This document shows positions 43,776 through 60,194 of a stretch of DNA of 64,000 nt, piece after piece. Under the pieces are notes generated by a model. It searched no databases and was not told the origin of the DNA. It saw only the letters and a program-made list of their open reading frames with translations. The DNA comes from Protaetiibacter sp. SSC-01. Its GTDB lineage: Bacteria > Actinomycetota > Actinomycetes > Actinomycetales > Microbacteriaceae. How positions within the stretch are numbered: position 1 is the stretch's first letter; each line of letters begins with the position of its first letter. The stretch covers positions 1,922,001-1,986,000 of the forward strand of contig NZ_CP059987.1 in NCBI RefSeq assembly GCF_014483895.1, written 5' to 3'. A program made the position numbers and the translations under genes.

Positions 43776-44870
43776 ATGGCAGACCTCACCCCTGCGCAAC
43801 TCGCCCTCGAACTGGGCGTCACCGCTAAGCGCGTCCGCACGATCCTCCGCGCTCGCTACGGCACACTGCCATCGCACGAGACCCGCTGGCAGCTCACCGA
43901 CGAGCAGGCCGCGCACGTCCGCGCTGAGCTGGCAGGCAAGGCTAACGACTCAGACGCATGGCCCTTGGAACCCGGAGACGTCGTACTCCGCCGCGAGCTT
44001 CACGAGCGCTTCGGCGGCTCACGCCAGAACGGGATCGTCACGCTGCCGGGCCAGGACGACATCCTGATCTTCTCCGGCTCGGGCGGGTCAAGCCACGGCT
44101 ACGCGGTTCACGAGGGATACCGCGAGGACGGTTCCTTCGGCTACACCGGCGAGGGCCAGGTCGGCGACCAGGAGTTCCTGCGTGGCAACAAGGCGATCCG
44201 CGACTCCGCCGCCAACGGCAAGCGGCTTCAGCTCTTCACGGTCGAGGGAACGCGAGCCCAGTACGTCGGCGAGTTCACCACGGGCGAGCCCACCTACCGC
44301 GTCGAGACCATTCCGGATCGCAACGGCAGCCCGCGGAAAGGCATCATCTTCAACCTCGTTCCCGTGAGCGCTGACATGTCGCTCCTGGGCGAGCCCGAGG
44401 GGCCGCTGCTCAACGGTGCCGAGGTGCTGTCGTGGATGCCGCCGGACGCCTCCGACATCGTCATCGCGCAGACCGAAGAGGCGCCGCCAGGCGAACGCGT
44501 GGTGTCGCGCATCGAGATGCAACTGCAGGCGGACTTCGGCGAGTGGTCGCGCGAACGGAACGATCCGCCGTCGCGACTTCTCCTGCGATCCGACGGCGCC
44601 ACCATCGAACCCGATCTCTACCTCGCAGGGTCTGGCTTCATCGTCGAGGCGAAGAAGTCGATCAGCCGCAATCTCGTACGGACGGCGATCGGGCAGGTCC
44701 TGGACTACACGCATGTTGCCGAGCGACACGGAACGGCCGCACGGCCAATGGTGTTGCTCCCCGGCCGCCCCGCCCCCGACCTGATGACCCTCATGTCGAA
44801 GCTCGGCATCACGGTCGCGTTCCGCGGTGACGGTGACTTCGAGGTAGTGGAGCCCGCTAGCGCTGACTAA
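43776..44870 (+). CDS. Type IV-like restriction endonuclease: HTH, ScoMcrA-like SRA, PD-(D/E)XK
   Basis: This 364-residue protein has three regions. Residues 1-55 form a short HTH (LTPAQLALELGVTAKRVRTI), Lsr2-tail-like. Residues 65-170 match the SRA-like domain of ScoMcrA (GDVVLRRELHERFGGSRQNG, HEGYREDGSFGYTGEGQVGD, GNKAIRDSAANGKRLQLF). Residues 245-330 carry a PD-(D/E)XK nuclease signature: IEPDLYLAG (Asp280) and FIVEAKKS (Glu291, Lys293), then AIGQVLDYTH (Gln307). It should cut DNA bearing a modified base. TAGCGT lies 6 bases before the ATG. Its 3' end overlaps the convergent Nudix gene by 14 bases. Confidence 0.8.
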   Translation: MADLTPAQLALELGVTAKRVRTILRARYGTLPSHETRWQLTDEQAAHVRAELAGKANDSDAWPLEPGDVVLRRELHERFGGSRQNGIVTLPGQDDILIFSGSGGSSHGYAVHEGYREDGSFGYTGEGQVGDQEFLRGNKAIRDSAANGKRLQLFTVEGTRAQYVGEFTTGEPTYRVETIPDRNGSPRKGIIFNLVPVSADMSLLGEPEGPLLNGAEVLSWMPPDASDIVIAQTEEAPPGERVVSRIEMQLQADFGEWSRERNDPPSRLLLRSDGATIEPDLYLAGSGFIVEAKKSISRNLVRTAIGQVLDYTHVAERHGTAARPMVLLPGRPAPDLMTLMSKLGITVAFRGDGDFEVVEPASAD

Positions 44871-45296: not shown

Positions 45297-46106
45297 CTAC
45301 GACGTGGGCGCGCGGCCGCGAGCGAAGCGAACGATGATCGCCGACAGCAGCACAACCACCGCGATCACGATCGCCGTGATCCCGATACCGGTGCTCTCCG
45401 GCTCCCCTGCCAGTCGCCCGACGGCCAGCCAGCTCAGCCCCCACGTGAGCGCAAGCGCCGGCGCGACCCGCCCGCGGCTGAACGACGCGATTGCCACCCC
45501 GATCAGCCCGACGACGACGAGCACCACGATGCCGACCGGAGTGGCGGCGTCGCCCCACGCATCCGGTGCGATGTCCGTCAGGAACGCCGTTGTATTCGCG
45601 ACAGTCGCGAGCGTCACCCAGCCGAGGTGCAGCCCGTTGGCGCCATCGATGAGGAGCGAGTCGAGCACTCCCCCGCCGGCCTCGCGGGTGCCCACCGCGA
45701 TCCGGAAGATGATGCAGAGCACGACCAGCAGGGCGACGATGCCGATCACGGTGAGCAGCAACGTCGTGAACTGCGCGAACACGAGCCACAGCCCGTTGAG
45801 CACCATGCTGAGCGCGATCCACCACCCGAGCGCGCGCTGCCGTTCGCTGGCGCGCTGGCCCGGCAGCGCCTGCCGCACCGTGTAGGCGAGCAGTCCGACG
45901 TAGATGACGCTCCAGATCGAGAACGCCTGCTGCGCCGGCGCGAGGAAGCTGTACTCGGCGCTCAGCTTGCCGTCTTGCAGGTCTTCTACGGGCGTGCCCC
46001 CGAAGATACCTGTGCCGACGAGCGCGGCGATGATCATGAACGCGGCCGCTGAGATGACCGCGACCTGGCGGGCGATGTCGGACGGGCGGGATGTTCGCTC
46101 GATCAT
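45297..46106 (-). CDS. TspO/MBR-like membrane protein (long actinobacterial form)
   Basis: This 269-residue protein has about eight hydrophobic segments. GGTPVEDLQDGKLSAEYSFL, LAPAQQAFSIWSVIYVGLLA (the A-F-x-I-W-x-x-x-Y signature) and ALGWWIALSMVLNGLWLVFA resemble the tryptophan-rich sensory protein family, extended at the C-terminus compared with the roughly 160-residue TspO. The start MIERTSRPSD has TACCGT 6 bases ahead. The ligand is unknown, possibly tetrapyrroles as in the family. Confidence 0.75.
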   Translation of the reverse strand: MIERTSRPSDIARQVAVISAAAFMIIAALVGTGIFGGTPVEDLQDGKLSAEYSFLAPAQQAFSIWSVIYVGLLAYTVRQALPGQRASERQRALGWWIALSMVLNGLWLVFAQFTTLLLTVIGIVALLVVLCIIFRIAVGTREAGGGVLDSLLIDGANGLHLGWVTLATVANTTAFLTDIAPDAWGDAATPVGIVVLVVVGLIGVAIASFSRGRVAPALALTWGLSWLAVGRLAGEPESTGIGITAIVIAVVVLLSAIIVRFARGRAPTS

Positions 46107-46368
46107 GGTTCGACGGTATGGGGCACGATCGGATGCGTCAGGGGCCTTGACACGAATCGGACCAAGGTGGCCGGCGTCCACCCCGTGGGAGACAACCGGG
46201 TAGGTGCGCCGCAGCACACACGCATAGTTGGCACAACCGAACTCGCAGCCCGCCGATGGCTACCGGTCGAGTCCATCGTCGAAGCGGCCTCTGCGGCGTC
46301 TTCGCCACGGTACGAAGAGCGAGCAGACCTCGGTCGCGGACTCGTCTGACCAGAGCGGGCAGAAGAGG

Positions 46369-49350
46369 TCAGAGCTTCCACGCTCCCGGAACCGCACGCG
46401 CGTAGTCGCCGACGCCGATCGCCTCGAAATGTCGCTTCGCGGCCTTGATCTTGGCCAGCTCGGTCGGCCGAAGTTTCGAGTCGTCGAGCGTGCTCTTCGT
46501 TTCGCGGATCATGTAGATCCGGTCCTCGCCGTCCTCCTGCTTGATGATCGCCCAGTCGGGGTTGTAGGGGCCGACCGGGGTGTCGATCTTGAACTTCGCG
46601 GGCAGCTTCATGAACAACTTGATGTCCTCGCGGGAGTCGAGTAGCTCTGCGAACTTACGCTCCACGTCCGAGTCGAAGACGACGTAGTCAAAGTCGGTCT
46701 TCTGGGTGTGCTGCACCTTGTACATCTGGTCGAGGAAGCGCTCCTTTTCCTCCTCACCGTCCCGCTGCAGCTCACGTAGCTCGTAGACCGAGCCCGCGAT
46801 CCGCTCGTACTGGATGCCGTCGACCACGATCTTCGCCAGCTCACTTTGGAGGGCGCGCTTGGCCATCGAGATGAAGTCGTTGGGGTTGCCAATGAACTCA
46901 CCCAGTCGCTCGCTGCCGATCAGGATGTCGACGATGGTCTTGCGGGTGAGGGAGGTAGTCTCCTGCAACTCGGTAACGATGTCGGGCAGGTCATAACTGC
47001 CCTTGAGATCGGCTGAGCGGGTGCTGAGTTCCTCGCCCTTCGCCCCGCCGCGAAGCACCTTTACTCCGGCGCGGGTGACCTGGATGCGCAGCGGGTCGAT
47101 CTCGGGCGCTTCACGGATCGCCCGGATGGCGTTCTCAATCAATTGCTCGCGCTCGACCCTGACGCGGTAGGTGGTTCTCTGACTGATGGTCTCCCAAAAT
47201 TCCTCGAACCCCGGGGTGGAGTAGAGCCGCTTATTGAGCACGCGCGCTTGACGCTTGCCAACCGGCTTGACGTACTTGCCGATGTTCGCGCGCTCGACCA
47301 GCTCGATGATCATCGCCTCAGCCCAGGCGAAGTCGACAGGCAGGTCGAGCGTGAAGCCGAGCTGGCTCGGCTGGAACTTCGAGGTGACGACACCGTCCTC
47401 GTCGATGAAGCCATGGCCTTTGAGGTGCTCCCATACGAGGAGGGAGCGCTGATAGCCGAACAGGTGGTCGGTGATCGCACCGTTCGTGTCCTGCAGCGGA
47501 ATCTTCGAGAACTCGGCCTTGCGCACCCGGCCGATCTCAACCCCGGCGTCCTTGTACTCGCGCTGGAGTGCATCCGCGAACTTCGTGTAGGACTCGTTCG
47601 CCACGACCGTCAGAGTCGCGACGCCACGGTCAGCGACACGGGTGTACCCGTCGTGGGTCTTGGCGACAGGCAGACGAAGGCCACGGCCGAGGGTCTGACG
47701 ACGCTCAACCTCTTTGCCCATTTCGCGCAGGGTGCAGATCTGGAATACGTTCGGGTTGTCCCACCCCTCACGCAGGGCAGAGTGACTGAAGATGAATCGC
47801 ACGGGCTCGTTCTCATCAAGCAGTCGAGCCTTGTCCCGCATGATCAGCTCATAGGCGTCGTCATCGGCCTTGGTCGTGCCGGACGAATCCTGGAAGGTCG
47901 TCGTCTTGCCGCGCTTGATCTGGGAAAAGTACGCGCGGCGAAGCTCACTCGGCGCCTGCGGCAGCAGCTCCTGGTAACGCGAAGACCTCGCGCGCTCCTC
48001 GGCGAAGACCTCGTCGAACCACTGCACGAATTCGCCATTCGCGTCATCGTTGTTCCTGCCGACGCCCAGGTAACCGGCGACCTTATCAACGAAGAAGAGG
48101 CTGAGCACCTTGATACCCTTGGCGCGCAGCATCGACTCCTTGCGCAGGTGCTCGCGGACGGTCTCGCGGATCATCTCCTTGTAGATCGCACCGGCGGAGG
48201 CACCAATACTCTCGCCCTCATAGAGGAAGCCGTGCGAGGTGAGGTCGACGTAGGCGGGCTCGATGCTCATCTCGTTGATGCGCCAGCCCCCGTAGATCGG
48301 GTTGTTCGTCAAGCGCACATCCGACAGTTCCTGGTGTTGCTTCACGCTCACGACCCGGCGCTCGAGCGAGCCGTCGACCTTGCGGCACGAAAGCTCCAGG
48401 CGGGCCGACCACGACGGCTCGCGCCGCACCTCAACCAGCTTGATATACGGTGTCGCGTCCGCGCCCTCCTGGGCCACCTCGGCCACAACGATCTGCTTCA
48501 CCAACCCGAGGTCGTGGGCATCCACCGGGTCAAGCCGGAAGACGACGTTGCGTTGCTTCTTGTGGGTCGCGCTGTAGCGCAAAGTAAAGACCGGATCGAG
48601 TTCGCCCACCGCCGACTGCGAGAGCTGCGACTCCATGTTCTGCGGCTCATCCATGATCACGACCGGATGGGTCGCCTTCAGGTAGTCGATCGGCCGCAGC
48701 CCGTTCAGCTTGTCGCGCGTCTGATGGATAATGCGGGTGTTCTTGTCACCGCGGATCGAGTCGATCGTCATGATCAGCACCTGCACGTTTGTGGATGTCG
48801 CGAACGACTGCACCTCCTCGGCGCTCTTGCCGCTGTAGATCGAGGCATCAAAGGTGACGCCCCGCGGCTTGTAGAGCTTCTCGAAGTGCTCGCGCATGAG
48901 CCGGATGCTCGTGCTGACGCCCTCACGAATCGCCACGCTCGGCACAAGGATCACGAACTTCGTGAAGTTGTAACGTACGGCCAGCTCGAAGATCGTGCGG
49001 AGGTAGACATACGTCTTGCCCGTGCCGGTCTCCATCTCGATATCGAAGTCAAGCGCGTCGCCCGAAAGCGACGGCGCGACCTCGAGGCCATTTCGATCCT
49101 GCACACGCTGCAGGTTCGCGAGGATCAGGTCGCGATCGAGCACCAGGCTGTTGCCGACTGCACCTACCTCCTGCGTGAGGTCGATATCGAGGGGCGCCTG
49201 ATCCGAGTCGGGCAACACTGCCGTACCACGCAGGGTCGTGACCAGATTCTCCGCATCCTTCGGTTGCCCGTCGAACAGGTCAACCACGGACGCGATCGCA
49301 TCCAGCTGGTACGGCTGACTGGCGTCGAACTGAAACCCTGATCCGCTCAT
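46369..49350 (-). CDS. Type III restriction-like Res subunit (helicase-nuclease)
   Basis: This 993-residue DNA translocase has motif I METGTGKT at residues 106-113, motif II MDEPQN near 232 (DEPQ is characteristic of type III Res), ATHKK after RYSAT, and motif VI RRQTLGRGLRLP. A C-terminal PD-(D/E)XK nuclease is suggested by GPYNPDWAII near 930 and MIRETKS near 950. It needs the Mod subunit for target recognition and ATP for movement. The ATG overlaps the Mod stop by one base (TGATG). A GTG one codon earlier is possible. Confidence 0.93.
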   Translation of the reverse strand: MSGSGFQFDASQPYQLDAIASVVDLFDGQPKDAENLVTTLRGTAVLPDSDQAPLDIDLTQEVGAVGNSLVLDRDLILANLQRVQDRNGLEVAPSLSGDALDFDIEMETGTGKTYVYLRTIFELAVRYNFTKFVILVPSVAIREGVSTSIRLMREHFEKLYKPRGVTFDASIYSGKSAEEVQSFATSTNVQVLIMTIDSIRGDKNTRIIHQTRDKLNGLRPIDYLKATHPVVIMDEPQNMESQLSQSAVGELDPVFTLRYSATHKKQRNVVFRLDPVDAHDLGLVKQIVVAEVAQEGADATPYIKLVEVRREPSWSARLELSCRKVDGSLERRVVSVKQHQELSDVRLTNNPIYGGWRINEMSIEPAYVDLTSHGFLYEGESIGASAGAIYKEMIRETVREHLRKESMLRAKGIKVLSLFFVDKVAGYLGVGRNNDDANGEFVQWFDEVFAEERARSSRYQELLPQAPSELRRAYFSQIKRGKTTTFQDSSGTTKADDDAYELIMRDKARLLDENEPVRFIFSHSALREGWDNPNVFQICTLREMGKEVERRQTLGRGLRLPVAKTHDGYTRVADRGVATLTVVANESYTKFADALQREYKDAGVEIGRVRKAEFSKIPLQDTNGAITDHLFGYQRSLLVWEHLKGHGFIDEDGVVTSKFQPSQLGFTLDLPVDFAWAEAMIIELVERANIGKYVKPVGKRQARVLNKRLYSTPGFEEFWETISQRTTYRVRVEREQLIENAIRAIREAPEIDPLRIQVTRAGVKVLRGGAKGEELSTRSADLKGSYDLPDIVTELQETTSLTRKTIVDILIGSERLGEFIGNPNDFISMAKRALQSELAKIVVDGIQYERIAGSVYELRELQRDGEEEKERFLDQMYKVQHTQKTDFDYVVFDSDVERKFAELLDSREDIKLFMKLPAKFKIDTPVGPYNPDWAIIKQEDGEDRIYMIRETKSTLDDSKLRPTELAKIKAAKRHFEAIGVGDYARAVPGAWKL

Positions 49351-51299
49351 CACGCCGTCCAGACCTCGATGCCTTTGCTCTTCGCGAGCTGGGACATGTT
49401 GGTCTTGAGTTCGTCGTCGCCCTGGAAAGCATCCTCGAGCACGATGATCCTCGTCGGCGCTTCATCAACGAGCGCTCGGAGCTGCTCAAGTGTCGGCTTG
49501 ACGTGCTCGTTTAGGTATGCCAGCACTGCGACGTCACCGTCTCGGTCGCGCACAAGCCGGACTTCGAGTGCGCCGATCTCCGCAGACGAGACGGCCTCGG
49601 TCAGCGAGTAGCCCTGCTTGAGCAGGATCTCGGTGAGCAGCTCATCGGCAGTCGCATCGTCGGTTGCGCTATCGCGAAGGCTGAGGAGATGCTGCTGCAA
49701 AGCGTCTTCCTCGACCTCGCTAGACAACCGCCATTTCGCGAAGTTGGTGTCCGAGAGTTTGTAGGAGCGGAATCCAATGTCGAGCGGGGGACCTCCATCG
49801 ACCTGAAGCTGGTTCTTTCGCGTGCCGGCGAGCGAATCGCCAGCCTTATCGATACGCCGACGCGCGAGATCTGCAATTGTGCCTCCGGTCCCGTCGCCCA
49901 CGGGCTCTGGCAACTGGACCTGAATATGACGACGTCGACCCGAGTCCCTCAAGTTGGCTGACATCACAGCGTGCGCGGTCGTCGCCGACCCCGAGAAGAA
50001 GTCAAGAATCAACGCGTCTTCGTCGGGGCGCGTGAAGACAGCGACGAGATACTCGATCAGACCGAGGGGTTTCGGGTAGGAGAACGTCAACCCCCATGAG
50101 GCAAGAAGCGAGCTGTTCTGCTTGGTCGTCCCGAGATTCCGGAGGACAGACAGGACATGACCCTGATCTTCCGCGCGGCGCTTCATCATGTAGATCGCAC
50201 CCGTATCCCTCAGCTCGAACCACGTCTCGCGGCCATCCGCGTCGTCGATGGGTGAGCATCCGTTGCGGATGAATAGATCAAGCAAGTTCCGAGAACTCCA
50301 ACCGCTACGCACGCGTGCAGGAGTTACGACCTTCCCATTCTCGACGAGGATCTCGTCCAACACGTGCGGGTACGAGTCCTCCCTAATGCCAATCCGACCG
50401 GAGGTAAAATTCGCAGGGAAGCCCACGGGCAGCTCGACCTCAGAAGGCGGGTTCGCCGGACCATTCTTCGTGATCGAGTTCTCAATCAGTTCGCGGTACA
50501 GCTTGCTCTCTTCGCCGATGTTGGGGTCGATCACAGTCGGGCGCGCAAACTTCGATGTGTTCCGGGCGTAGGCGAGCACGTACTCGTGGACGCCCTTGAT
50601 CTTGCTCTGCTGGTCGACGTTGCCGTCGTTGAGCCACACGAACTGAGCAATGAGGTTGTTCTCTCCAAACACCTCGTCACAGAGCCGACGCAGCTGCGCC
50701 TGTTCGACGTCATTGATCGAGATCAGAATCACGCCATCGTCCGTCAGCAAGTTGCGAGCAAGTTTGAGACGCGGGTACATCATGTTCAGCCAGGCCGAAT
50801 GGTAGTGAGGATTATCCGAGGTATTCTTCGCGATGGTGCTCTTGGCGTTGCCGTCATCACCGATCAGCCCGGCGTACTCCAGGTAGGTCTGGAGCCCTTC
50901 GCGGTAATTATCCGGGTAGACGAAGTCCTTGCCGGTGTTGTACGGAGGGTCGATGTAGATCAGCTTGATCTTCGCGTGGTAGTGCTTCTGTAGGATCTTG
51001 AGCACTTCGAGATTGTCGCCCTCGATGAAGACGTTCTGCGTCGTGTCCCAGTCCTTCGAGTTTTCGAAGTCAGGACGCAGCGTCGCCGTGGTCGGCTCCT
51101 GTGCCGCGCGTAGCGCGCGCCTCTTGCCGGGCCAGAATAGTCCGAACCGCTCGCTGGTCTCGACTGCGTCACCGTCGAGCAGCTCCTTCAGCTTCTCGAC
51201 GTCCACCTTGCCATCTGCGATGGCCTCGGGAATCAAGAAGGCAAGCTGCGCTGCCAACTCGGTCCGGAAGTGCGGGGTCGTCGCTGGTGTCTCGTGCAC
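49350..51299 (-). CDS. Type III-like Mod DNA methyltransferase
   Basis: This 649-residue beta-class amino-methyltransferase has the catalytic motif DPPYNTGKDFVY near residue 118 and the AdoMet-binding motif DFFSGSATTAHAVM near 431. The target-recognition region lies between them. DPPY indicates N6-adenine (or N4-cytosine) methylation. The N-terminal part FWPGKRRALRAAQEPTTATL and the C-terminal ISINDVEQAQLRRL are typical of Mod proteins associated with Res. The start is GTG, with GGGAGA 9 bases ahead. It is divergent from the FRG gene by 77 bases. Confidence 0.93.
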   Translation of the reverse strand: MHETPATTPHFRTELAAQLAFLIPEAIADGKVDVEKLKELLDGDAVETSERFGLFWPGKRRALRAAQEPTTATLRPDFENSKDWDTTQNVFIEGDNLEVLKILQKHYHAKIKLIYIDPPYNTGKDFVYPDNYREGLQTYLEYAGLIGDDGNAKSTIAKNTSDNPHYHSAWLNMMYPRLKLARNLLTDDGVILISINDVEQAQLRRLCDEVFGENNLIAQFVWLNDGNVDQQSKIKGVHEYVLAYARNTSKFARPTVIDPNIGEESKLYRELIENSITKNGPANPPSEVELPVGFPANFTSGRIGIREDSYPHVLDEILVENGKVVTPARVRSGWSSRNLLDLFIRNGCSPIDDADGRETWFELRDTGAIYMMKRRAEDQGHVLSVLRNLGTTKQNSSLLASWGLTFSYPKPLGLIEYLVAVFTRPDEDALILDFFSGSATTAHAVMSANLRDSGRRRHIQVQLPEPVGDGTGGTIADLARRRIDKAGDSLAGTRKNQLQVDGGPPLDIGFRSYKLSDTNFAKWRLSSEVEEDALQQHLLSLRDSATDDATADELLTEILLKQGYSLTEAVSSAEIGALEVRLVRDRDGDVAVLAYLNEHVKPTLEQLRALVDEAPTRIIVLEDAFQGDDELKTNMSQLAKSKGIEVWTA

Positions 51300-51376
51300 G
51301 TCTCAGAGTCTCCCACGCCGCGACGACGACACATGTGTCGCCGAGCGCTCGTGCCTACTGCCGTACGCTTCCCACT

Positions 51377-52312
51377 ATGCCGACGACACCACCGTCCTGG
51401 GACCCGCAAAGCTACTTCAAAGCTTGGGAGCGTTCGGTCGATAGTTGGGCGAGACTTGAGGAAGAGCTCAAGAACGTCGAATGGGTGTCTGACGGAAGAA
51501 AACTAGTTTGGCGGGGCGTTCACGACAGCAGTTACGGCTTATTAAGTTCAGCTTACCGCTGGCTGAAGCGCCACGACAATAGGATCCCTTCGGAAGCACG
51601 GTTGCGCGACCTAGAGTCCAAATTGCTGACCATCTCCCGGACCACTTGGCCGGATAGGGGGGGCAGCGCCCTGGAAACATTGGCACATATTCAACACTAT
51701 GGTGGCCCTACGCGGCTGATCGATGTCAGCCATTCCGTGGAAGTTGCGGTGTTTTTTGCGACGGAGCAGAGATTCGATAAGGACACTCATAAGCCTCTCG
51801 AGGATGTCGATGGGCGGCTCTTTGCATTCCAGTCTGACGATCGGGTTATCGATCTCGACTCGAACTGGGGCTCACGGGAGATACCTTGGGCGCATTGGGA
51901 ACGAGAAGAGAATGGTTGGGAGACATCCCTTCCATTCGTTTGGAACCCGCCACGCGCCTTGAATGAACGAATCACTGCTCAGCATGGAGCGTTCCTAGTG
52001 GGCGGAGTGCCGTCGCTTCCGCACGGTCAGAACTCGCGGTATCGAATGCCTGGCGCCTGGCAACACGGAAACATGAAAACAATGCCTGCTGCCGATGTAC
52101 GGGAAATCACATCTGTTTCAGTCTTTTTGAAAAGTCTCGACCGCCGAACTACCAAGAAGTCTCAGGCGGCCTACACGTTGAGAATCGCAGCAAAGGCGAA
52201 ACCTGAAATCAGGAAGAAGCTGCTGGAAAAACGCGGCCTGCATCATGGATCAATCTATCCAGATCTCTATGGACTCGCAGAGCACGGCGCAAGCCTGGCA
52301 TCGTTCGCTTAG
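51377..52312 (+). CDS. FRG-domain protein within the restriction cluster
   Basis: This 311-residue soluble protein has the FRG domain: LVWRGVHDSSYGLLSSAYRW (F/W-R-G motif), SALETLAHIQHYGGPTRLID and VSHSVEVAVFFATEQ. The C-terminal half is unassigned. It is the only plus-strand gene between Mod and the SNF2 helicase. Its base composition is clearly lower in G+C (one 60-base line from 51721 has 30 G/C, against 42 in a leuS line from 10201), which suggests separate acquisition. TACGCT lies 7 bases before the ATG. The biochemical role of FRG domains is not established. Confidence 0.82.
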   Translation: MPTTPPSWDPQSYFKAWERSVDSWARLEEELKNVEWVSDGRKLVWRGVHDSSYGLLSSAYRWLKRHDNRIPSEARLRDLESKLLTISRTTWPDRGGSALETLAHIQHYGGPTRLIDVSHSVEVAVFFATEQRFDKDTHKPLEDVDGRLFAFQSDDRVIDLDSNWGSREIPWAHWEREENGWETSLPFVWNPPRALNERITAQHGAFLVGGVPSLPHGQNSRYRMPGAWQHGNMKTMPAADVREITSVSVFLKSLDRRTTKKSQAAYTLRIAAKAKPEIRKKLLEKRGLHHGSIYPDLYGLAEHGASLASFA

Positions 52313-52375
52313 CCACCGCTTCTCCCCGTGGACTAGAGGAGACCGGGAATGAATGCGGGCGGCTCATCCTGCCGC

Positions 52376-55333
52376 TCACTTCGAGAGTTGCCAGCGAATC
52401 GTGAACAGGTGCTCGTTCTCCTGGATGCCCTGGAGCGACTGCTCGATCAGTTCGAGATACTTGTCAGCCTCGGCGCGGAGCTTCTTGCGCGTGTCTCGGA
52501 AGTCCTCGTCGGCTTCCTCGGCACGCTGCTCCCACTTGCGTGCCTCTTTCTTGAGGCGTAGCTGCTCCATCGGGTCGTCCGCCTGTCGGGCGAGCTTGCG
52601 GGCTTCCTTCTCCTTGGCCCGGTACTCGCGGATCCTGCCTTCGTGCTCGGCCTTGCGATCCTGCTGGTTGCGGTATAGCAGTTCCTCCTGCTGGTCGTAG
52701 TAGCGGGAGTTGCGTCCCTGGACTTCCTTCTCCAGCTCAGCCCGACGGGCATCAAGGTACGGCGTGAAACGTGCCGCTTCGATCGACACCGGCTGCTCGC
52801 CAACCTCGATGCAAGCCAGGTCGAGGATGTCTGCGACATACTCCTCGTCGAGCCACCGGCCGTCGTCGGTCAGGGCGCCGGCGAGCATGTAGGACTCGGA
52901 GATGTCCTCATCGCGTGCCTTCATGCGGAAGGTCACAACGTTCGCAGTTAGCTCGCCGCTGGTTCCTTCCAGCGCGCGGATTGCGCTACTCACCCGCTCC
53001 GACTGCCAAAGCGAAAACTTCACCTCTCGTGCCGGAGTGTCGTGGGCCTTTGCCGTATCGATGACGTGCCTTGCGAGCGGGCTCGCGTAGCGGTACTGGT
53101 GGGCGTTCTCCAGCGGCTGGGATTTGAAGAAGTAGCGGCCGGTCGGCGCGTCCTTCACCGGGGACTGGTTCAGTACGAAGATGCGCCCGTCGCCCTCGAA
53201 GGTCGCGTGCCCGTGCAGTTCGTGTCGGGTTACCGCGAGCAACAAGCGCTCGAACTTGTTGAGTACCTCGCCGGACTGCGTGTCGTACGCCTTGAGCCGA
53301 TCCTGGACGTGCGGGTCAAGGTTGTCGAAGACCTTCGCCTTGGCGCTGGCCATCTCATGCGAGATCTCGGTCGCGTACTGCGCCTCCAGCTCGCGGAACG
53401 CGGCATCCAGCTCGTCGGCGGTTCTGCAGTGGGTGAGAATATCGCTGATCGTTTTCTCAAAGTCCAGGCCATCCTCGATCGCTCCGAGCACCTCGTCGCT
53501 GGCACCGAAGACGCTGGAGAACAGCTGGAACTTGTTCGTCAGCAGTTCCAGGATGCGCTGCTCGGCAATGTTGCCCTTGTTCGAGAAGTTCACGACGACA
53601 ACGTTGTGCTTCTGCCCGAAACGGTGCACCCGGCCGATGCGCTGCTCGACCCGCTGTGGGTTCCACGGCAGGTCATAGTTGACGAGCATCGAGCAGAACT
53701 GCAGGTTGATGCCCTCTGCGGCAGCCTCAGTCGCGATCATGATCGTCCCGTCGGTGCGGAAGTAATCCACGAGCGCCTTGCGACGATCCACTGCCGCGAT
53801 GCCGGTGATCAGGTCACTGTCTCTGTTCTTTTCTAGCCACGCCTGGTAAATCGCGGTCTGCTCGGGTCCGCTGTTCGAGCCATTGAACAGGACAAGCCCC
53901 TCGCCACGACCAGCCTCACGCAGCGATCGGGCGATGTACTCCTGCGTCTTGGTCGAGTCGGTGAAGATGATGGCCTTCTCCGGAGCGCCCAGCTGACGCA
54001 ATCGCTCAAAGCCCCGGTCGAGTGCCTCACCGAGCTTGACCGCCTTCTGGTTCACAGTGATCGAACGGGCAAGCGCAGCGTACTCGCGCAGCTCGACAAC
54101 CTCAGCCCGCGTCGCCTCCAACAGCGACTCATCACGGGGCATCGATGAGGCACGGGAACCAGTGCCAGTATCCTCGAGCTCCTCCGCCTCTTCCAGTTCC
54201 TCGCTGGTGATCTCATCGTCAATGGCGAAGTCGGCTGCAACGAGGCCGCCACGCCCATGGTGACGCTGTCCGGTCGCGACTTCGTCAGCCAGGCGATTCG
54301 CGATGTTTTCGAGCGTGCTCGCGACCGCATAGGTCGACGAGCCGAGGCGCTTACGGATGATCAGGGCAGAGAGGTGACGTTGGCTGCCCGCGAAGGCGAA
54401 TAGCTCGTCGCGCTGCAGGTAGTCGTTCACCAGGTCGTAGAGCCGCGCCTCGTCCGGCGAGGGAGTGAACTCGACCGTCAGCGGCAGGCGCTGGGTGAAG
54501 TGAATGTACTTGTCAGCGTCACGACGCAGCGTGCGCTTCGATATGGTCGCGACACGTTCCGCCAAGTCGCTTGAGTCGTCAAGCCATTCACGCGCGCGAT
54601 CTGCATTGCGCGGGTCGGACAGGGACCCAAAATGACGGGACACATCGATCTTCTTGACGTATCGCTCGCGGAACGCGTCTAGAGAGTGGAAGTAGTCCGG
54701 ATAAAAAATCGCTACCAATCCATATAGTTCCTCGAGCTTGTTCTGCAACGGTGTCGCCGTCAGCAGAACTGTCTTGTGCGCGCCCGAGACTATGTGCGCC
54801 ACCGCCTCGGCAGCCTTGGTCTTGCCTGTCCAGTAGTTGCGCAGCCGGTGGGCCTCGTCCGCGACCACGAGATCCCACGCCTTCAGCAGCGACGTCTCAT
54901 GTCGGAGCGCGAACTCGTAGGAACAGATCAGCACTTGCGTCGAGCGCCCACCCGCTGCGGCAAGCAGTGATTCTTTCGACTTCGGGTCGAGGATGGCGGA
55001 CGGGATCAGGAACTTCTCGTATAGCTCCTGCTGCCACTGCTGCCGCAGACTCGACGGGGCAACGATCAGGATGCTGCGGCGGCGCTCCGCCCAGTGCTGA
55101 GAGATGACGATCCCCGCCTCGATCGTCTTTCCGAGGCCCACCTCGTCAGCCAGGATCACGCCCGGCAGGAACGGTGTCTGCAAAGCAAAGAGGGCGGCGT
55201 CGATCTGGTGCGGCTTCGGCTCCACCTGGGCGTCGAACAGCAAGCCAGCGAGCTTGCCGACGTGGTCATTGGCGTAGCTGCGCTGAAGCTCGTGCGCGTA
55301 ATACTTCGCCTGGTAGTGGCTGATTCTGGTCAC
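52376..55333 (-). CDS. SNF2/RapA-like DEAD/DEAH helicase
   Basis: This 985-residue superfamily 2 ATPase has Walker A LADEVGLGKT at residues 61-70, DEAH in VVADEAHRLRN near 161, LTATPLQNKLEELYGL (motif III) and the C-terminal motifs NYDLPWNPQRVEQRIGRVHR and FGQ near 560. After the helicase core come an acidic insert (TSEELEEAEELED) and, near residues 880-970, a long charged coiled coil (AEHEGRIREYRAKEKEARKL). The start is GTG, with GGAG 6 bases ahead. It shares strand with Mod/Res, and the FRG gene intervenes. It resembles helicases of defence clusters such as DrmD, but no other DISARM gene is present. Confidence 0.9.
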   Translation of the reverse strand: MTRISHYQAKYYAHELQRSYANDHVGKLAGLLFDAQVEPKPHQIDAALFALQTPFLPGVILADEVGLGKTIEAGIVISQHWAERRRSILIVAPSSLRQQWQQELYEKFLIPSAILDPKSKESLLAAAGGRSTQVLICSYEFALRHETSLLKAWDLVVADEAHRLRNYWTGKTKAAEAVAHIVSGAHKTVLLTATPLQNKLEELYGLVAIFYPDYFHSLDAFRERYVKKIDVSRHFGSLSDPRNADRAREWLDDSSDLAERVATISKRTLRRDADKYIHFTQRLPLTVEFTPSPDEARLYDLVNDYLQRDELFAFAGSQRHLSALIIRKRLGSSTYAVASTLENIANRLADEVATGQRHHGRGGLVAADFAIDDEITSEELEEAEELEDTGTGSRASSMPRDESLLEATRAEVVELREYAALARSITVNQKAVKLGEALDRGFERLRQLGAPEKAIIFTDSTKTQEYIARSLREAGRGEGLVLFNGSNSGPEQTAIYQAWLEKNRDSDLITGIAAVDRRKALVDYFRTDGTIMIATEAAAEGINLQFCSMLVNYDLPWNPQRVEQRIGRVHRFGQKHNVVVVNFSNKGNIAEQRILELLTNKFQLFSSVFGASDEVLGAIEDGLDFEKTISDILTHCRTADELDAAFRELEAQYATEISHEMASAKAKVFDNLDPHVQDRLKAYDTQSGEVLNKFERLLLAVTRHELHGHATFEGDGRIFVLNQSPVKDAPTGRYFFKSQPLENAHQYRYASPLARHVIDTAKAHDTPAREVKFSLWQSERVSSAIRALEGTSGELTANVVTFRMKARDEDISESYMLAGALTDDGRWLDEEYVADILDLACIEVGEQPVSIEAARFTPYLDARRAELEKEVQGRNSRYYDQQEELLYRNQQDRKAEHEGRIREYRAKEKEARKLARQADDPMEQLRLKKEARKWEQRAEEADEDFRDTRKKLRAEADKYLELIEQSLQGIQENEHLFTIRWQLSK

Positions 55334-55524
55334 ACACGTCTCCGGACCGGCGGCGTGCGCAACCGGGATAGCGACGCGCTACGCAGCGTTCCGTCCTTGG
55401 ACACGTACCTCCGCCTTCGTTGCTCGAGGGCATCCACCCGTGACCTCCTTCAGGGTATCCATCGACGTCGAACGTTATGCGTCCCCACATCTGGGGCAAT
55501 TGGGGTTGTCATCTCGCCGGAGAC
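55334..55524. other. Intergenic stretch between helicase and membrane-protein genes
   Basis: This 191-base gap between two minus-strand genes contains no supported gene or repeat. It may carry the promoter of the helicase gene, but no convincing -35/-10 pair was found. Confidence 0.4.
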
Positions 55525-56547
55525 TTAGTCGTTGGAAAGGAGAACGTCGATCGCACGCTTCCAGCGAGCTCTCAACGGCGTCGGCGTGAGCATGGAAGCG
55601 AGCTTCTGGATGTCTCCTTCAATCTGCACCGTCTGACGTTGCGACAGCCAGACCGCAGCCCTCGCCGCACCGTCGCGCACAGACCACCCGGACCATGTCA
55701 TTGTCCCGCTCAGAATCACAACCAGTTGACCACCGATCATCGCGACGACGAGCGGATAAACACTGCTCCAGTGCAATATTCCAATCCCAATGAGCAACGC
55801 GAGGGATACGTGCACGGCAGCGGCGGGAAGAAAGGCGATGGACCGCGCGTAGCGGTCATCGGCGAGGTTGTGCAGCAGGCGCGACACCCAGGTCGCGACG
55901 GTCAGGAGCGCTGCGCCGAGGAAGATCCAAGATAGGACGACGAGGTCGAACGCCGCTTCCGGATACGTGAGCGCGAGCGCAGCAAGCACGACTACGACCA
56001 CGGCGCCGAGGTTGGCGACGAGAACAATCCAGACCTTCTGCCGCGCCTGCACTTCGAGCCGCTCGATTCGAGTCGTCAGGGATTGTTCGCGAGCACGCAA
56101 CTCAGCAATGTGATCGGCAGCAGGCGGCGAACCGAACGTCCCCAACTGCGCTGCCAGGAACCACACAATGATGCTGACCAACAGCGACATTGCGAAGGCA
56201 ACTGCCCCATCGACCTCGCGCACGCGAATTGCTAAGAGCGCTATAAGCGGAAACGTCGTGGCCGCGAGCATCTCTCCGAACAAGGCGATAATCCGTCGCC
56301 GGTCGCCCACCTGTCCGGCAATCGCAGACACATAGAGAGCCAGAAGTGCGGTGAGGTGAGCGGTCAGTGCCCACCCGATTTGCGTCCCGACTGCCTCACT
56401 CACCTGCATTGCGACTTGCCCCGCGTCTGGCCCCGCGAGCAAGAAAAGACTCGGTAGCAAGGCGACTAGACCCAAGCCAGTGATCGTGAACTCCACGAAG
56501 ACTGCGATGGATCGCCGCGGCAGGTATAGCGACTCAACGTTGGCCAT
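55525..56547 (-). CDS. Polytopic membrane protein with central coiled coil
   Basis: This 340-residue protein has about four N-terminal membrane segments, a central soluble stretch with a likely coiled coil (HIAELRAREQSLTTRIERLE), then about four more hydrophobic segments. Its basic C-terminal tail includes LRARWKRAIDVLLSND. No family was recognised. It lies upstream of the SNF2 helicase on the same strand, inside the island. This membrane-coil-membrane layout is seen in some defence effectors, but an effector role is only a guess here. The ATG has GGGGAGGAGG ahead. Confidence 0.65.
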   Translation of the reverse strand: MANVESLYLPRRSIAVFVEFTITGLGLVALLPSLFLLAGPDAGQVAMQVSEAVGTQIGWALTAHLTALLALYVSAIAGQVGDRRRIIALFGEMLAATTFPLIALLAIRVREVDGAVAFAMSLLVSIIVWFLAAQLGTFGSPPAADHIAELRAREQSLTTRIERLEVQARQKVWIVLVANLGAVVVVVLAALALTYPEAAFDLVVLSWIFLGAALLTVATWVSRLLHNLADDRYARSIAFLPAAAVHVSLALLIGIGILHWSSVYPLVVAMIGGQLVVILSGTMTWSGWSVRDGAARAAVWLSQRQTVQIEGDIQKLASMLTPTPLRARWKRAIDVLLSND

Positions 56548-56854
56548 GGCGAACGGCCTCCTCCCCGACGGACGCCGCCAAAACTACCGTCTGCCAGCGA
56601 GGCGATCACCTTTGGCCCCCGGCTCGACTCGGAGGGGTGTCGGCTCAATCACCGGCATTGACGAGCCCGATTGGGCTCGTCAGCGCCTCGCTCACTTCGC
56701 TCAACCGCACATCGATCGTGCTGGCCATGCCGATCGCCCAGGCGTCGACTCGAGCAAAATGAGCGCGCAGCGCCCTGCCGGAGACAGCGGTCCTCGTACT
56801 CAAGCGGCGCCAGTATCGTGATCCTGTAACCGCCGTTCAGAGCGAAAGTCGCCG
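56548..56854. other. Divergent intergenic region before mcrB (307 bases)
   Basis: It holds a perfect hairpin, GACGAGCCC-GATT-GGGCTCGTC (56660-56681), inside a 32-base sequence that recurs near 60.47 kb. On the minus strand a possible 27-codon frame (MASTIDVRLSEVSEALTSPI...) runs across it. TATCGT near 56815 is a weak -10 candidate for mcrB. Confidence 0.5.
56661..56692. repeat. Left copy of 32-base repeat flanking mcrBC
   Basis: ACGAGCCCGATTGGGCTCGT followed by CAGCGCCTCGCT matches 60468-60499 at 28 of 32 positions, in the same orientation. The first 20 bases are palindromic. Confidence 0.6.
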
Positions 56855-58945
56855 ATGACTACCGAATCTCGTACACCTCAGCGCCTCCGCCGAGCCATAG
56901 AACTGCTATCCGAAGGCAGCCCCGCGAACACGCGTGCGACCCTCTGGGCGGCCGTTCGCACTGAGATCCCGCTCACGGAATACGAGGCCGCCTTGCTCAG
57001 CAATGGCGTGACGCGCGCCGAAACCGACTGGGCATTCGCATCGTCGAACCTCGTGAAGAGCGGATGGTTGGTCAAGGACGGCAACGGCGGATGGGCGATC
57101 ACGGAAGCCGGCCGCGGTGCGCTCCGCAACTTCCCGGACCCGGTGGAGTTTGCGCGGACGGCAGCGGCGGCGTACAAGTCGTGGCGCGATGAGCAAGCTG
57201 CAGCACTTTCCCGCGGAATCGTGCCCGCAGACGACAAGCAAGCACTGATCGTAGACACAGCCAAGCTCTTCGCCGAGCGCGGGCTCGCTGAGCTCAGCTC
57301 CGTCTTTTCCCCCGGGCGGTCCGTTTGGAATGAGCGCACAACAGCGGAACTCATCGCGAAGTTTGTGGACTCTGACGGATCCGGCGCCGGCAGTTTTGTG
57401 GAGAAGGTGGCCCAGCAATTGTCGGACGCAACCGACGACGCGCGGCTGCTCATGGCGGAACTCGTCGCCCTACAGCTGCTGCCGGCCAGCACCGACACGA
57501 TCGGCGCTGACAAGAAGCTGGCGCGGGTCCAAGCCGTCCTCGACCTCATGGACCACCCGGTGCAGGTCCCGGCCGAGATCCGCGCGGCGTTCGGCGCAGG
57601 AGCTTTCAACCCCGGCGTCGCGATGGCGAACAGTCTTGGGGCCGCGATGACGATCATGGTGAACTTCGCCGACTCATGGGTGCGCCTGCCTGAGGAAGAA
57701 CGCATTCGGCTCCTGGAGGATCCGTGGGAGTTCCGCGACTTCGTCCACGCTGTGCCGGGCACGTCCTTCCCATCCCAACGGCTGTCGCTGATGTATCTCA
57801 TGCACCCGGAGACCTTCACCAGCATCGTGCAGGCGGACGCGCGCGAGCGTATCCGGAACGCATTCATCGGGGAGATCGATCGTGGGCCGAGCGACCTGGA
57901 TCGAGACCTCCGCGACATCTGGGTAGCTCTGCAGGTAAAGCACAAGAAGCGCATCCACTTCTGGATGCCGGAGTTCCTCGAGGTCTGGAGCAAGGAAGAC
58001 GCATCGTCGACGAAGGTCGATGCGCCGATACCCGCCGCGCAGGTGACCCTCCCTGCACCTGATGAAGCACTGGCCGGCGAGCTCCTGATCTCGCGAGAGT
58101 GGCTCGACCAGGCGATGCACCTGCTCGCGAGGCGAAAGCAGGTCGTTCTCTACGGCCCTCCGGGCACCGGCAAGACCTATCTCGCAAAGGCACTTTCTCG
58201 ATACGCGAGCGGCGGAGTTGCTCCCTCGATCGTTCAGTTCCACCCGAGCTACTCCTATGAGGACTTCGTCGCCGGGTACCGACCGGCGACGGTCGACGGG
58301 CAACTGCACTACCGACTGAAGGCTGGCCCCCTCCTTCGGCTCTCCGAAGAGGCTGCCAAGAATCCCGAGCGACCACACTTCCTCGTCATCGACGAGATCA
58401 ACCGGGGGAATCTCGCCAAGGTTTTCGGAGAGCTGTACTTCCTCCTCGAATACCGCAACGAGGAGATTGACCTCTTGTACGGCCATCCCGATGGAGACGG
58501 AGCCAAGTTCGCGTTGCCAGCCAATTTGTTCATCATCGGCACGATGAACACGTCCGACCGTTCCATCGCGCTGCTCGATGCAGCGATGCGGCGTCGCTTC
58601 GGGTTCCTCGAACTCCACCCTGACCGTGAGCCCATCCGGGGCTTGCTTCCGGCCTGGCTACGACAGCACGGGCAGGACGCCGGGCATGCCGAGGTTCTCG
58701 CTGAGCTGAACCGTCGAATCGCCGACCGGTCACTTCGCGTGGGCCCCAGTTACCTCATGCCGCGAGACGGGATCCTTGACGAACCCCGCCTCCGAGAGAT
58801 CTGGGCGTACGAGATCTTGCCGCTGCTGGAGGAGATGCACTTCGGTGAGGACATCAACCTCGAGGCGGAGTACGGGCTCGACTCTCTCCGTCGATCCATG
58901 GCTGCAGCACGCGGCGACGAGGCGGCGGACTCCCCGGAAGAATGA
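56855..58945 (+). CDS. mcrB: McrB-type AAA+ GTPase of a modification-dependent restriction system
   Basis: This 696-residue motor subunit has an N-terminal winged-helix segment at residues 1-95 (ESNGV-type EYEAALLSNGVTRAETDWAF and SGWLVKDGNGGWAITEAGRG), a variable middle, and the AAA+ domain. Walker A GPPGTGKT is near 434, Walker B FLVIDEINRGN near 508, and the McrB signature GTMNTSDRSIALLDAAMRRR near 563. McrB hydrolyses GTP and recognises modified DNA through its N-terminal part, which here is not the E. coli type, so the recognised modification is unknown. It overlaps mcrC (ATGA). Confidence 0.92.
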   Translation: MTTESRTPQRLRRAIELLSEGSPANTRATLWAAVRTEIPLTEYEAALLSNGVTRAETDWAFASSNLVKSGWLVKDGNGGWAITEAGRGALRNFPDPVEFARTAAAAYKSWRDEQAAALSRGIVPADDKQALIVDTAKLFAERGLAELSSVFSPGRSVWNERTTAELIAKFVDSDGSGAGSFVEKVAQQLSDATDDARLLMAELVALQLLPASTDTIGADKKLARVQAVLDLMDHPVQVPAEIRAAFGAGAFNPGVAMANSLGAAMTIMVNFADSWVRLPEEERIRLLEDPWEFRDFVHAVPGTSFPSQRLSLMYLMHPETFTSIVQADARERIRNAFIGEIDRGPSDLDRDLRDIWVALQVKHKKRIHFWMPEFLEVWSKEDASSTKVDAPIPAAQVTLPAPDEALAGELLISREWLDQAMHLLARRKQVVLYGPPGTGKTYLAKALSRYASGGVAPSIVQFHPSYSYEDFVAGYRPATVDGQLHYRLKAGPLLRLSEEAAKNPERPHFLVIDEINRGNLAKVFGELYFLLEYRNEEIDLLYGHPDGDGAKFALPANLFIIGTMNTSDRSIALLDAAMRRRFGFLELHPDREPIRGLLPAWLRQHGQDAGHAEVLAELNRRIADRSLRVGPSYLMPRDGILDEPRLREIWAYEILPLLEEMHFGEDINLEAEYGLDSLRRSMAAARGDEAADSPEE

Positions 58946-60129
58946 CACGCTACGAGGTGCGGGAGGCCGACACGGCCTTCCTGAAGATGCCGTTGGCCGC
59001 TGTCCAGGCCCTCACCTCGCTCGGCGTCTGCACGGCCAGCCCGGCCGGCGACGCGGGTTGGCGCGTCTCCAATGTCGCAAAGGTCGGGGCGATCAGCTTC
59101 CCCGGCGGCGAGGTACACATTCAGCCGAAGCTCGAGATCTCCAGGCTCTTCTGGATGCTGGGAACGGGCAGGCAGTGGGGCGACTGGCGGGACGGCGACG
59201 TTGAGCTCAACCGATCTGACACTCTCAGCGCTGCTATCGCAGAGAGCTTTGCCCATTTCGCCGAGGCGGCACTACGGCGAGGGATCCTTCAGGGCTACCG
59301 CTCGACGGAAGCCACCGAGACCGCAGTTCGCGGCAAGTGGTTGATCTCCGAACAGGTGAGACGCCGCTCTGGGCTCGTTCTGCCTGTCGAACTGCAGTAC
59401 GACGACTACGTCGCCGACATCGCCGAGAACCGCGCAATCAGAGGTGCGGCGATCCGCGCCCTACGGTTCCCCAGCCTCCCGCCAAGTCTGCGACGACGCC
59501 TTGAGCGCATCGAGCGGGAGCTTTTCGAAGTTGCTCCGGGCACACACAAGAGCTCGCAGTCTGTCTTCTTCGATCGACGAAACTCCCACTACCGCCCCGC
59601 AATCGAGCTCGCGGGGCTCATCTTGGCGGAGGACGGCATCGATCACGGCGCGCAGGGAGCGCGATCGCGAAGTTACCTCCTCGACCTCGCCAAGATGTTC
59701 GAGGACTTTATCGAGGCGGAGGTTCGGCGCGCGGCTCGGAACTTCCCGGGGACGATCACCGCTCAGCACAGAGGAACGCTCGACCAGGCGCAGCGGGTCG
59801 ACATTCGACCCGACCTCGTCTGGAGCAAAGGTGGTCGCGTGCGGGCGATCCTCGACGCCAAGTACAAGACCGAGAAGCCGCACCGAGGTCATCCCAACCC
59901 TGACATCTATCAGATGCTGGCGTATTGCATCCGGTATGGCGTCCGCGCCGGGCACCTTATCTACGCCAAGGGCAATGCAGACCCTGCGCGCTACGTCATC
60001 GAGCAGGCAGGCGTGACCATCGTGTGTCACGCGCTCGACCTGTCGGCCGAACCCGCACAGATCGAGCGTCAAGTCGATTGGTTGGTCGCGGACGCACTCG
60101 GTCCTGATCTCCAGCAGGACCTGCCATGA
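58942..60129 (+). CDS. mcrC: McrC-type nuclease subunit
   Basis: This 395-residue endonuclease partner of McrB has an N-terminal beta-rich part (VGAISFPGGEVHIQPKLEIS). The PD-(D/E)XK core is DIRPDLVWSKGG near residue 289 (Asp) and AILDAKYKTEK near 304 (Asp-Ala-Lys). NPDIYQMLAYCIRYGVRAGH is the family's C-terminal block with the catalytic-fold Gln. The start is the ATG that overlaps the mcrB stop. It cuts DNA when stimulated by McrB GTP hydrolysis. Confidence 0.92.
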   Translation: MTRYEVREADTAFLKMPLAAVQALTSLGVCTASPAGDAGWRVSNVAKVGAISFPGGEVHIQPKLEISRLFWMLGTGRQWGDWRDGDVELNRSDTLSAAIAESFAHFAEAALRRGILQGYRSTEATETAVRGKWLISEQVRRRSGLVLPVELQYDDYVADIAENRAIRGAAIRALRFPSLPPSLRRRLERIERELFEVAPGTHKSSQSVFFDRRNSHYRPAIELAGLILAEDGIDHGAQGARSRSYLLDLAKMFEDFIEAEVRRAARNFPGTITAQHRGTLDQAQRVDIRPDLVWSKGGRVRAILDAKYKTEKPHRGHPNPDIYQMLAYCIRYGVRAGHLIYAKGNADPARYVIEQAGVTIVCHALDLSAEPAQIERQVDWLVADALGPDLQQDLP

Positions 60130-60194
60130 CCCGCAACACAACGTGCCCTCTTCTGGGTCATGACACGTTCGCACCGCCCACCTAGCGTGCAGTC

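Follow-up and report, generated by a model that had tools for sequence, protein, structure and literature searches.

Gene content of the locus

The stretch analyzed here is a 64,000-nucleotide segment of the Protaetiibacter sp. SSC-01 genome (contig NZ_CP059987.1, positions 1922001-1986000 within a genome of 2.96 Mb), called the window below, and its subject is a locus that encodes a type III restriction subunit (Res), a type III DNA methyltransferase (Mod), and a DNA motor of the SNF2 family. A first-pass annotation had proposed that these three genes, an FRG-domain gene, and a gene for a membrane protein together form one composite defense system. All five genes were found at the positions it gave, with plausible starts and, where sought, the motifs expected for activity. 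The low-GC (guanine plus cytosine) stretch that holds the locus has a GC content of 58-64%, compared with 72% across window bases 1-38000. Comparison across genomes leaves us highly confident that the recurring unit is a three-gene architecture of SNF2, Mod, and Res. The genes at the center of the locus are the following:

46369..49353, minus strand: Res, type III restriction subunit, 994 amino acids, core gene 3 (PF19778 and PF04851)
49350..51299, minus strand: Mod, type III DNA methyltransferase of the N6-methyladenine (m6A) type, 649 amino acids, core gene 2 (PF01555)
51377..52312, plus strand: FRG-domain gene, 311 amino acids, cargo inserted between SNF2 and Mod, not core (PF08867; PADLOC candidate family PDC-S15)
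52376..55333, minus strand: SNF2-family DNA motor, RapA/DrmD_b-like, 985 amino acids, core gene 1 (PF00176 and PF00271)

As had been annotated, the FRG gene lies on the opposite strand between Mod and the helicase; its start is the ATG at 51377, and the listed open reading frame (ORF) opens earlier, at 51101. Res and Mod overlap by 4 nucleotides if Res starts at a GTG; the one-base overlap reported for them holds if it starts at the ATG directly after.

Res has the composition expected of a type III enzyme, a superfamily 2 (SF2) ATPase joined to a C-terminal PD-(D/E)XK nuclease, with the motifs GTGKT, DEPQ, and a C-terminal PD..ETK. It scores 894 bits against the PADLOC profile REase_III (PDLC03647), and its sole match among solved structures is EcoP15I Res (4zcf, E-value 6e-55). 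Mod scores 506 bits against MTase_III (PDLC03634) and carries DPPY at 117 and FSGS at 435, as members of the type III family do; its solved relatives are 6k0w, 4zcf, and 7dsu, and its target-recognition domain (TRD), an exchangeable central domain, covers approximately residues 230-470.

The SNF2 protein carries the motifs GLGKT, DEAH, and QRIGRVHRFGQ. Its best profile is DrmD_b, at 559 bits (under the cut-off of 950), and it scores 246 bits against DrmD (under the cut-off of 610). An AlphaFold2 model built with 49 sequences has a predicted local distance difference test (pLDDT) score of 82.8 and a predicted template-modeling (pTM) score of 0.76, and its five best PDB matches are all RapA (E-values 2e-27 to 7e-19). 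Whole-chain template-modeling (TM) scores against RapA are only ∼0.44-0.52, so the domain arrangements of the two proteins differ in detail, and the N-terminal part of RapA is missing from the SNF2 protein, because the profile aligns to RapA only from about residue 130-150 onward. The C-terminal coiled coil of the first-pass annotation corresponds to two long helices with which the model ends, at residues 853-917 and 921-966. A Pfam search recognized no nuclease or specificity domain in the protein. At about residues 200-250, the window protein has ∼20 residues that are absent from nine others aligned, and identity to close relatives is lower there.

Linkage of SNF2 with Mod and Res

A search of 396 genomes of the phylum returned ten full-length SNF2 relatives scoring at least 489 bits, the window's own included, and the next score was 138. 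The alignment of these ten sequences was used to scan named genomes, and the best 80 of the 560 relatives listed entered the sample; these 80 loci, the nine other phylum loci, and the window make up a set of 90 SNF2 loci, 89 of which have a clear SNF2 ORF. Within the DNA available, and many contigs are short, Mod was found in 69/89 and Res in 57/89. When loci with at least 9 kb of downstream sequence are considered (n = 49, window included), Mod is present in 44, Res in 43, and both in 43; with the window excluded, both lie beside SNF2 in 42/48. In 42 of the 49 loci, Mod lies downstream of SNF2 on the same strand. The exceptions are one locus with Mod alone (L111) and five with neither gene (L071, L108, L109, L113, and L116). 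As a control, we examined 6-20 kb around each of 20 other, lower-scoring SNF2 genes of the same phylum, and found Mod at one and Res at none. The earlier proposal that the SNF2 helicase extends a type III module is thus borne out by 43/49 loci, compared with 1/20 (Mod) and 0/20 (Res) in the controls. There are 57 three-gene loci in all, window included, and the named organisms among them span 11 phyla. Linkage is kept even where gene order is permuted to Mod-Res-SNF2 (L044, L073, and L200).

Within the order to which the window belongs, SNF2 was detected at E ≤ 1e-100 in 13/297 genomes. Among the 12 loci besides the window, 11 have Mod and 10 have Res; one contig ends after Mod, and one locus has neither gene. 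The nearest SNF2 relatives within the order (86-91% identical) occur in families other than that of the window, and the one relative from the same family is 78% identical. Transfer between families is suggested, because the nearest relatives lie outside the window's own family. On plasmids, 44 records carry SNF2 at E ≤ 1e-100, 27 of them typed as conjugative. The four plasmid loci examined have the order SNF2, DNA methyltransferase, and a DEAD/DEAH helicase-family protein, and this last gene was labeled Res by profile search in 4/4. The gap of one locus is occupied by an Abi-family gene together with an IS256 element, and another locus has a DUF262 gene between the methylase and Res.

Several features beyond the three genes were seen at individual loci. 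A small helix-turn-helix gene precedes SNF2 in all four plasmid loci (L245 6232-6432, L246 8766-9011, L247 8808-9035, and L248 8792-8992) and is of at least two sequence types; it was rejected as a fourth core gene, since a profile of the four found it in 6/83 loci and not in the window. In three unrelated bacteria, SbcC- and SbcD-like genes immediately follow SNF2-Mod-Res (L087, L088, and L095; the SbcC-like assignment was tested in L087), and the SbcC-like cluster, first labeled ResD, was left out of the 43/49 counts. In a Thiomicrospira locus (L113, 9932-22837), two SNF2-family ORFs surround a HEC-06/Orf5-like gene and a DruE-like protein of 1759 amino acids.

Co-divergence of the core and exchange of the recognition domain

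Ten close systems (the window, L043, L191-L193, L195-L197, L034, and L045) were compared gene by gene. Their SNF2 and Res proteins are 64-92% identical to those of the window over their length, and the first 200 residues of Mod are 75-80% identical, and in 45/45 pairs the identity of the Mod TRD is at most 30%. Distances tell the same story across the 18 loci of the window's Res type, for which the correlation coefficient (r) is 0.975 between SNF2 and Res and 0.957 between SNF2 and the Mod core; all three mutual correlations fall within 0.957-0.975, and 0/5000 permutations were as high. Distances in the TRD follow neither SNF2 (r 0.095; 1265/5000 permutations as high) nor Res (r 0.115; 1136/5000). 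These sequence distances show that SNF2 and Res have diverged in step with the Mod core and that the Mod TRD is swapped independently; the three genes behave as one unit in which the reading head alone is exchanged. A role for SNF2 as a specificity partner of Mod is not supported, because SNF2 distances do not track the TRD.

Res families and a second SNF2 lineage

The Res proteins found beside this SNF2 lineage are not all of one kind. The window Res matches PDLC03647, two others tested match PDLC03648, and two match PDLC03654; because these PADLOC matches differ between loci, one SNF2 lineage occurs with three type III Res families. Viewed from the other side, Res relatives at E ≤ 1e-60 occur in 22/396 phylum genomes, four of which are also among the ten genomes with SNF2. 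Sixteen of the remaining 18 Res loci were examined: eight have a different SNF2 gene, five have wide flanks and no SNF2, and three are cut by contig ends. An SNF2 neighbor of either lineage is therefore present in 12/17 Mod-Res loci that can be judged. In a Res tree, the SNF2-linked Res proteins cluster (four label changes, compared with a shuffled mean of 12.6; 0/500 shuffles as low). The label "no SNF2" in this tree means without an SNF2 of the window's lineage, and 8/16 of the loci so labeled carry the different SNF2; the branch of one row (L151) is very long and contig ends truncate three of the loci, and the tree is used for the statement on clustering alone.

The different SNF2 genes (L249, L250, L251, L252, L254, L256, L257, and L258) form a second, distant lineage of ∼980-1150 amino acids with profile scores of 130-160, and each is followed by a small gene, Mod, and Res. 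Five of the seven small genes tested are DUF4391, and the helicase best matches PADLOC C3a139 "HKD+Snf2" in 3/3 tested of the eight. These loci thus share with the window an SNF2-family helicase, Mod, and Res in one direction, with a small gene among them, and differ in their distant SNF2 (∼1085 amino acids) and in the DUF4391 gene of five of the seven tested. No published description of an SNF2-DUF4391-Mod-Res arrangement was found in the literature searched. That a distant SNF2 lineage is also found at Mod-Res loci suggests that a motor of this kind has been needed more than once.

The FRG gene and the variable slot

The FRG gene is a clear member of its family (Pfam match of 62.9 bits, cut-off 25; conserved RG, QHxGxPTRL, and AQ..F positions present), and by comparison it is a newcomer to the locus. 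It occurs in 1/90 SNF2 loci, that of the window itself, and in 0/12 SNF2 loci of the same order. FRG homologues are present in 13/297 order genomes, and the window's own genome is the one genome common to the FRG and SNF2 sets; because ∼0.5 shared genomes are expected by chance, this is a lack of association rather than avoidance. None of SNF2, Mod, or Res was found at any of the nine FRG-homologue loci examined (of 12). In Kocuria rhizophila TA68 (L043), where the DNA of SNF2 and Res is 87-88% identical to that of the window, the two blocks of homology are 90 nucleotides apart, compared with 1094 nucleotides in the window, where FRG lies between them. The gene also has the lowest GC content (54.7%) among the eight genes measured. 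Comparison thus shows FRG as a recent insertion of ∼1 kb that is missing from relatives. As FRG runs against the operon, SNF2 and Mod-Res would no longer share a transcript by simple read-through.

The interval that FRG occupies is variable across loci. Among 54 loci in SNF2-Mod-Res order, 32 have an extra ORF of at least 150 amino acids and 22 have none; the extra ORFs lie between SNF2 and Mod in 28 loci and between Mod and Res in 12. These ORFs come from a mechanical longest-ORF caller, and some of those on the opposite strand may be spurious. Pfam scans of 20 slot or nearby ORFs recognized AIPR, Schlafen AlbA_2, Fic, SMC/AAA, Abi_2, AAA_21 with DUF4276, RhuM, YhcG, GmrSD, SIR2-like, and Bro-N families; two of the 20 had no match, one SIR2-like match is below its cut-off, and one SbcD-like ORF lies outside the slot. 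At one locus, in Flavobacterium celericrescens (L050, 14276-18890), two type III Mod genes share a single SNF2-Mod-Res locus and a GmrSD-like gene occupies the slot.

The available excerpts of PMC9503650 place FRG in the ADP-ribosyltransferase (ART) superfamily, with possible NADase activity. Our FRG model has a pLDDT of 72.8, and 5/14 of the PDB rows listed for it, all at chance level, are ART-fold proteins. PMC12707154 reviews restriction guardians, PrrC and PARIS among them, and PMC3506569 proposes that toxin-like genes change in type I and type III restriction loci, with one toxin replacing another (both sources consulted as excerpts). Like that guardian or toxin cargo, the genes seen here are of effector type and embedded in a restriction operon; unlike the PrrC and PARIS cases, FRG at this position in an SNF2-Mod-Res locus was seen in this analysis in the window alone. 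The position of FRG in a variable slot is consistent with restriction-guardian cargo, and the gene may add an abortive step as an exchangeable piece of such cargo.

Neighboring genes

Three further genes lie upstream of SNF2:

55525..56547, minus strand: membrane protein, 340 amino acids, no family match, a neighbor not shown to belong
56855..58945, plus strand: McrB-like GTPase subunit, 696 amino acids, of a neighboring type IV restriction pair (PF07728 and PF14338)
58942..60129, plus strand: McrC-like subunit, 395 amino acids (PF10117, 162 bits)

The membrane protein has eight hydrophobic segments and a charged loop at about residues 145-170. The first-pass annotation had called it a protein of no recognized family, and indeed none of four family libraries (Pfam, PADLOC, NCBIfam, and PHROGs) returned a match for it; no homologue was found in the 297 order genomes besides its own, in plasmids, or in viral contigs. 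Its gene is present in 1/90 SNF2 loci (the window) and 0/12 order loci, the same counts as for FRG, so the proposal that these two genes are parts of the module fails. The neighborhood comparison that the annotation had suggested accordingly divides its list of partners: The helicase accompanies Mod and Res across genomes, and the FRG and membrane genes do not.

The McrB-McrC pair, absent from the earlier annotation, is upstream of the membrane gene and divergent from it. McrB scores 148 bits against the model NF008457, below the cut-off, and carries an MNTSDRS motif. McrBC was rejected as a fixed partner, with 4/90 SNF2 loci having it (the window, L035, L048, and L076) and 0/12 in the order. 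We regard the membrane gene and McrBC as neighbors, not parts; McrBC is a separate system that shares the low-GC stretch.

On the other side of the locus, window positions 43776-44870 hold an ORF of 364 amino acids for which Pfam, PADLOC, and NCBIfam gave no match; it is similar to phrog_15103, a family of unknown function, and has at its end a PD...EAK motif reminiscent of a PD-(D/E)XK nuclease. No tRNA genes were found in the window, and a scan of 46000-60300 for sigma-70-type promoters found none (shuffled sequence yields 2.1), an outcome that carries no information on promoters for FRG or Mod.

Comparison with known systems

In canonical type III restriction-modification of the EcoP15I type, Mod and Res suffice. 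Mod and Res of the window are relatives of the EcoP15I subunits, motifs included; unlike EcoP15I and EcoP1I, the window locus carries a third linked gene, the SNF2 motor.

Type I DISARM (DrmD, DrmMI, DrmA, DrmB, and DrmC) resembles the locus in that its DrmD_b is the closest profile to the SNF2 protein and in that an adenine-type methylase is present, but the methylase of the window is a type III Mod rather than DrmMI, and Res is added. The MZB domain of DrmB (PF09369) has no match in the whole genome and has matches in 8/14 control genomes. The DrmA profile (PDLC02572), which is unspecific and matches 13/14 control genomes, hits the SNF2 gene in two pieces and, weakly, one helicase elsewhere in the genome. 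A PADLOC scan of eight window genes gave no match to DrmC, for which no separate search was made. Membership in DISARM was rejected on the DrmD score below cut-off, the missing MZB domain, and the lack of a specific DrmA match.

Besides DISARM, two other published arrangements are the nearest found. Hma/BREX-related systems centered on DUF499, as presented in the excerpts of PMC12839542, combine an SNF2-type helicase and an N6 methylase in one operon; the window locus has type III Mod and Res instead, and membership was rejected because the eight window genes scanned against Pfam include no DUF499 match, the rest of the genome lying outside that search. The excerpts of PMC5608340 describe a mobile region in which the type IIG pair Pin17FIII has an SNF2/RAD54 helicase upstream, and there, too, a gene of the SNF2 family adjoins methylases; the authors assign the genes to type IIG, not to Mod-Res.

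In the literature searched for SNF2 together with type III, Mod, or Res, a scope outside which most subscription journals fall, SNF2-Mod-Res was not found as a published unit. It is not described in the parts available of PMC2292703, PMC12839542, PMC12458937, PMC7641849, PMC3710099, PMC9503650, PMC7251935, PMC10952713, PMC11090510, PMC12707154, PMC3506569, PMC5608340, or PMC8102008.

Proposed function and alternative explanations

The explanation we prefer, and consider on balance probable, is that the locus encodes type III restriction extended to a core of SNF2, mod, and res, in which the motor aids Res, and with FRG as inserted cargo of the guardian type. Mod would methylate a single strand of its asymmetric target and guide Res, which, as in EcoP15I, would cleave unmethylated foreign DNA once the sites had communicated in an ATP-driven manner. 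On the restriction side, the SNF2 protein would act as a sequence-independent motor on double-strand DNA, clearing or remodeling proteins ahead of Mod-Res. Taken by itself, this step, in which the motor assists Res on protein-covered DNA, is a tentative proposal to which we give somewhat less than an even chance. If PrrC and PARIS are a guide, FRG may be a toxin or an NADase that is set free by a block of the core. Also tentative, and in our estimate a little short of an even bet, is the broader idea that SNF2-Mod-Res is a distinct, widespread, and unnamed type III class in which a RapA-like motor is obligatory for protein-covered or transcribed DNA, which offers a platform for guardian effectors such as FRG, and for which two unrelated SNF2 lineages were recruited independently.

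Several observations weigh against this explanation. The motor role and the guardian role are both inferred, and the search with the FRG model returned no significant PDB match (best E-value 0.68). Keeping the best 80 of 560 relatives favors close SNF2 relatives, and the co-divergence in 18 loci may partly reflect organism history or shared-locus history. Mod and Res accompany six of the ten SNF2 genes from the phylum (window included); of the rest, three have other methylases nearby (L039, L041, and L042; that of L039 is DrmMI- or type IIG-like), and one is followed by a contig end 775 bases downstream (L040); more distant SNF2 relatives likewise adjoin methylases other than Mod. Over 52 loci, SNF2 distances correlate weakly with those of Mod (r 0.37) and Res (0.43), compared with 0.92 between Mod and Res, and SNF2 has therefore been exchanged between Mod-Res types. 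Within groups, the SNF2-Res correlation is 0.955 for ResA (10 loci), 0.80 for ResB (25), and 0.56 for ResC (17), and the SNF2-Mod correlation is 0.88 for ResA and 0.56 for ResC, with ResB at 0.21 (142/2000 permutations as high). Within the window's group, SNF2 has not visibly changed partners. Finally, there are the five Res loci with wide flanks and no SNF2; because such loci exist, and because EcoP15I-type enzymes need Mod and Res alone, the SNF2 motor is no general requirement.

The main rival for the motor role is self-protection, with SNF2 acting as a reset factor that strips Mod-Res from under-methylated host DNA, for example, after TRD exchange or during replication, and so limits self-restriction. 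SNF2 and RapA-type proteins remove proteins from DNA or polymerase (general knowledge; RapA from PDB titles), frequent TRD exchange would expose the chromosome each time, and SNF2 tracks Res closely in distances. However, Mod-Res loci persist without SNF2, and we consider self-protection unlikely.

A second possibility, that SNF2 is an independent defense gene or a DISARM-like remnant that rides with Mod-Res in defense islands and is functionally unlinked, draws on the clustering of defense genes, on DrmD_b as the best profile, and on relatives beside DrmMI-like or type IIG-like methylases and at the HEC-06/DruE-like locus. Against this stand a linkage that is tight, adjacent, and mostly co-directional, its near absence around the control SNF2 genes, its survival when gene order permutes, and the co-divergence of the three genes but not of the TRD, which together make an unlinked SNF2 quite improbable. 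Least credible, and in our view very improbable, is the five-gene composite of the first-pass annotation, in which the products of SNF2, FRG, and the membrane gene jointly enlarge Mod-Res and add an abortive membrane step: Adjacency in the window and the position of FRG inside the operon interval favor it, but FRG and the membrane gene each recur at none of the other SNF2 loci, the nine FRG-homologue loci have no core gene, and the membrane gene has no homologue in the searches made.

Implications for type III restriction

Type III restriction is usually presented as the work of two genes; in the set examined here, three Res families regularly have SNF2 as a third partner. Should the motor turn out to be needed, it would be a new component of a textbook enzyme class and would explain how these enzymes act on DNA that carries proteins. 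Annotation tools of the PADLOC type, in which the locus at present falls apart into "type III" and a stray DrmD-like helicase, would then gain a single unit to annotate. The gap between the core genes, with its varying content, would in turn be a ready place to seek effectors that guard restriction.

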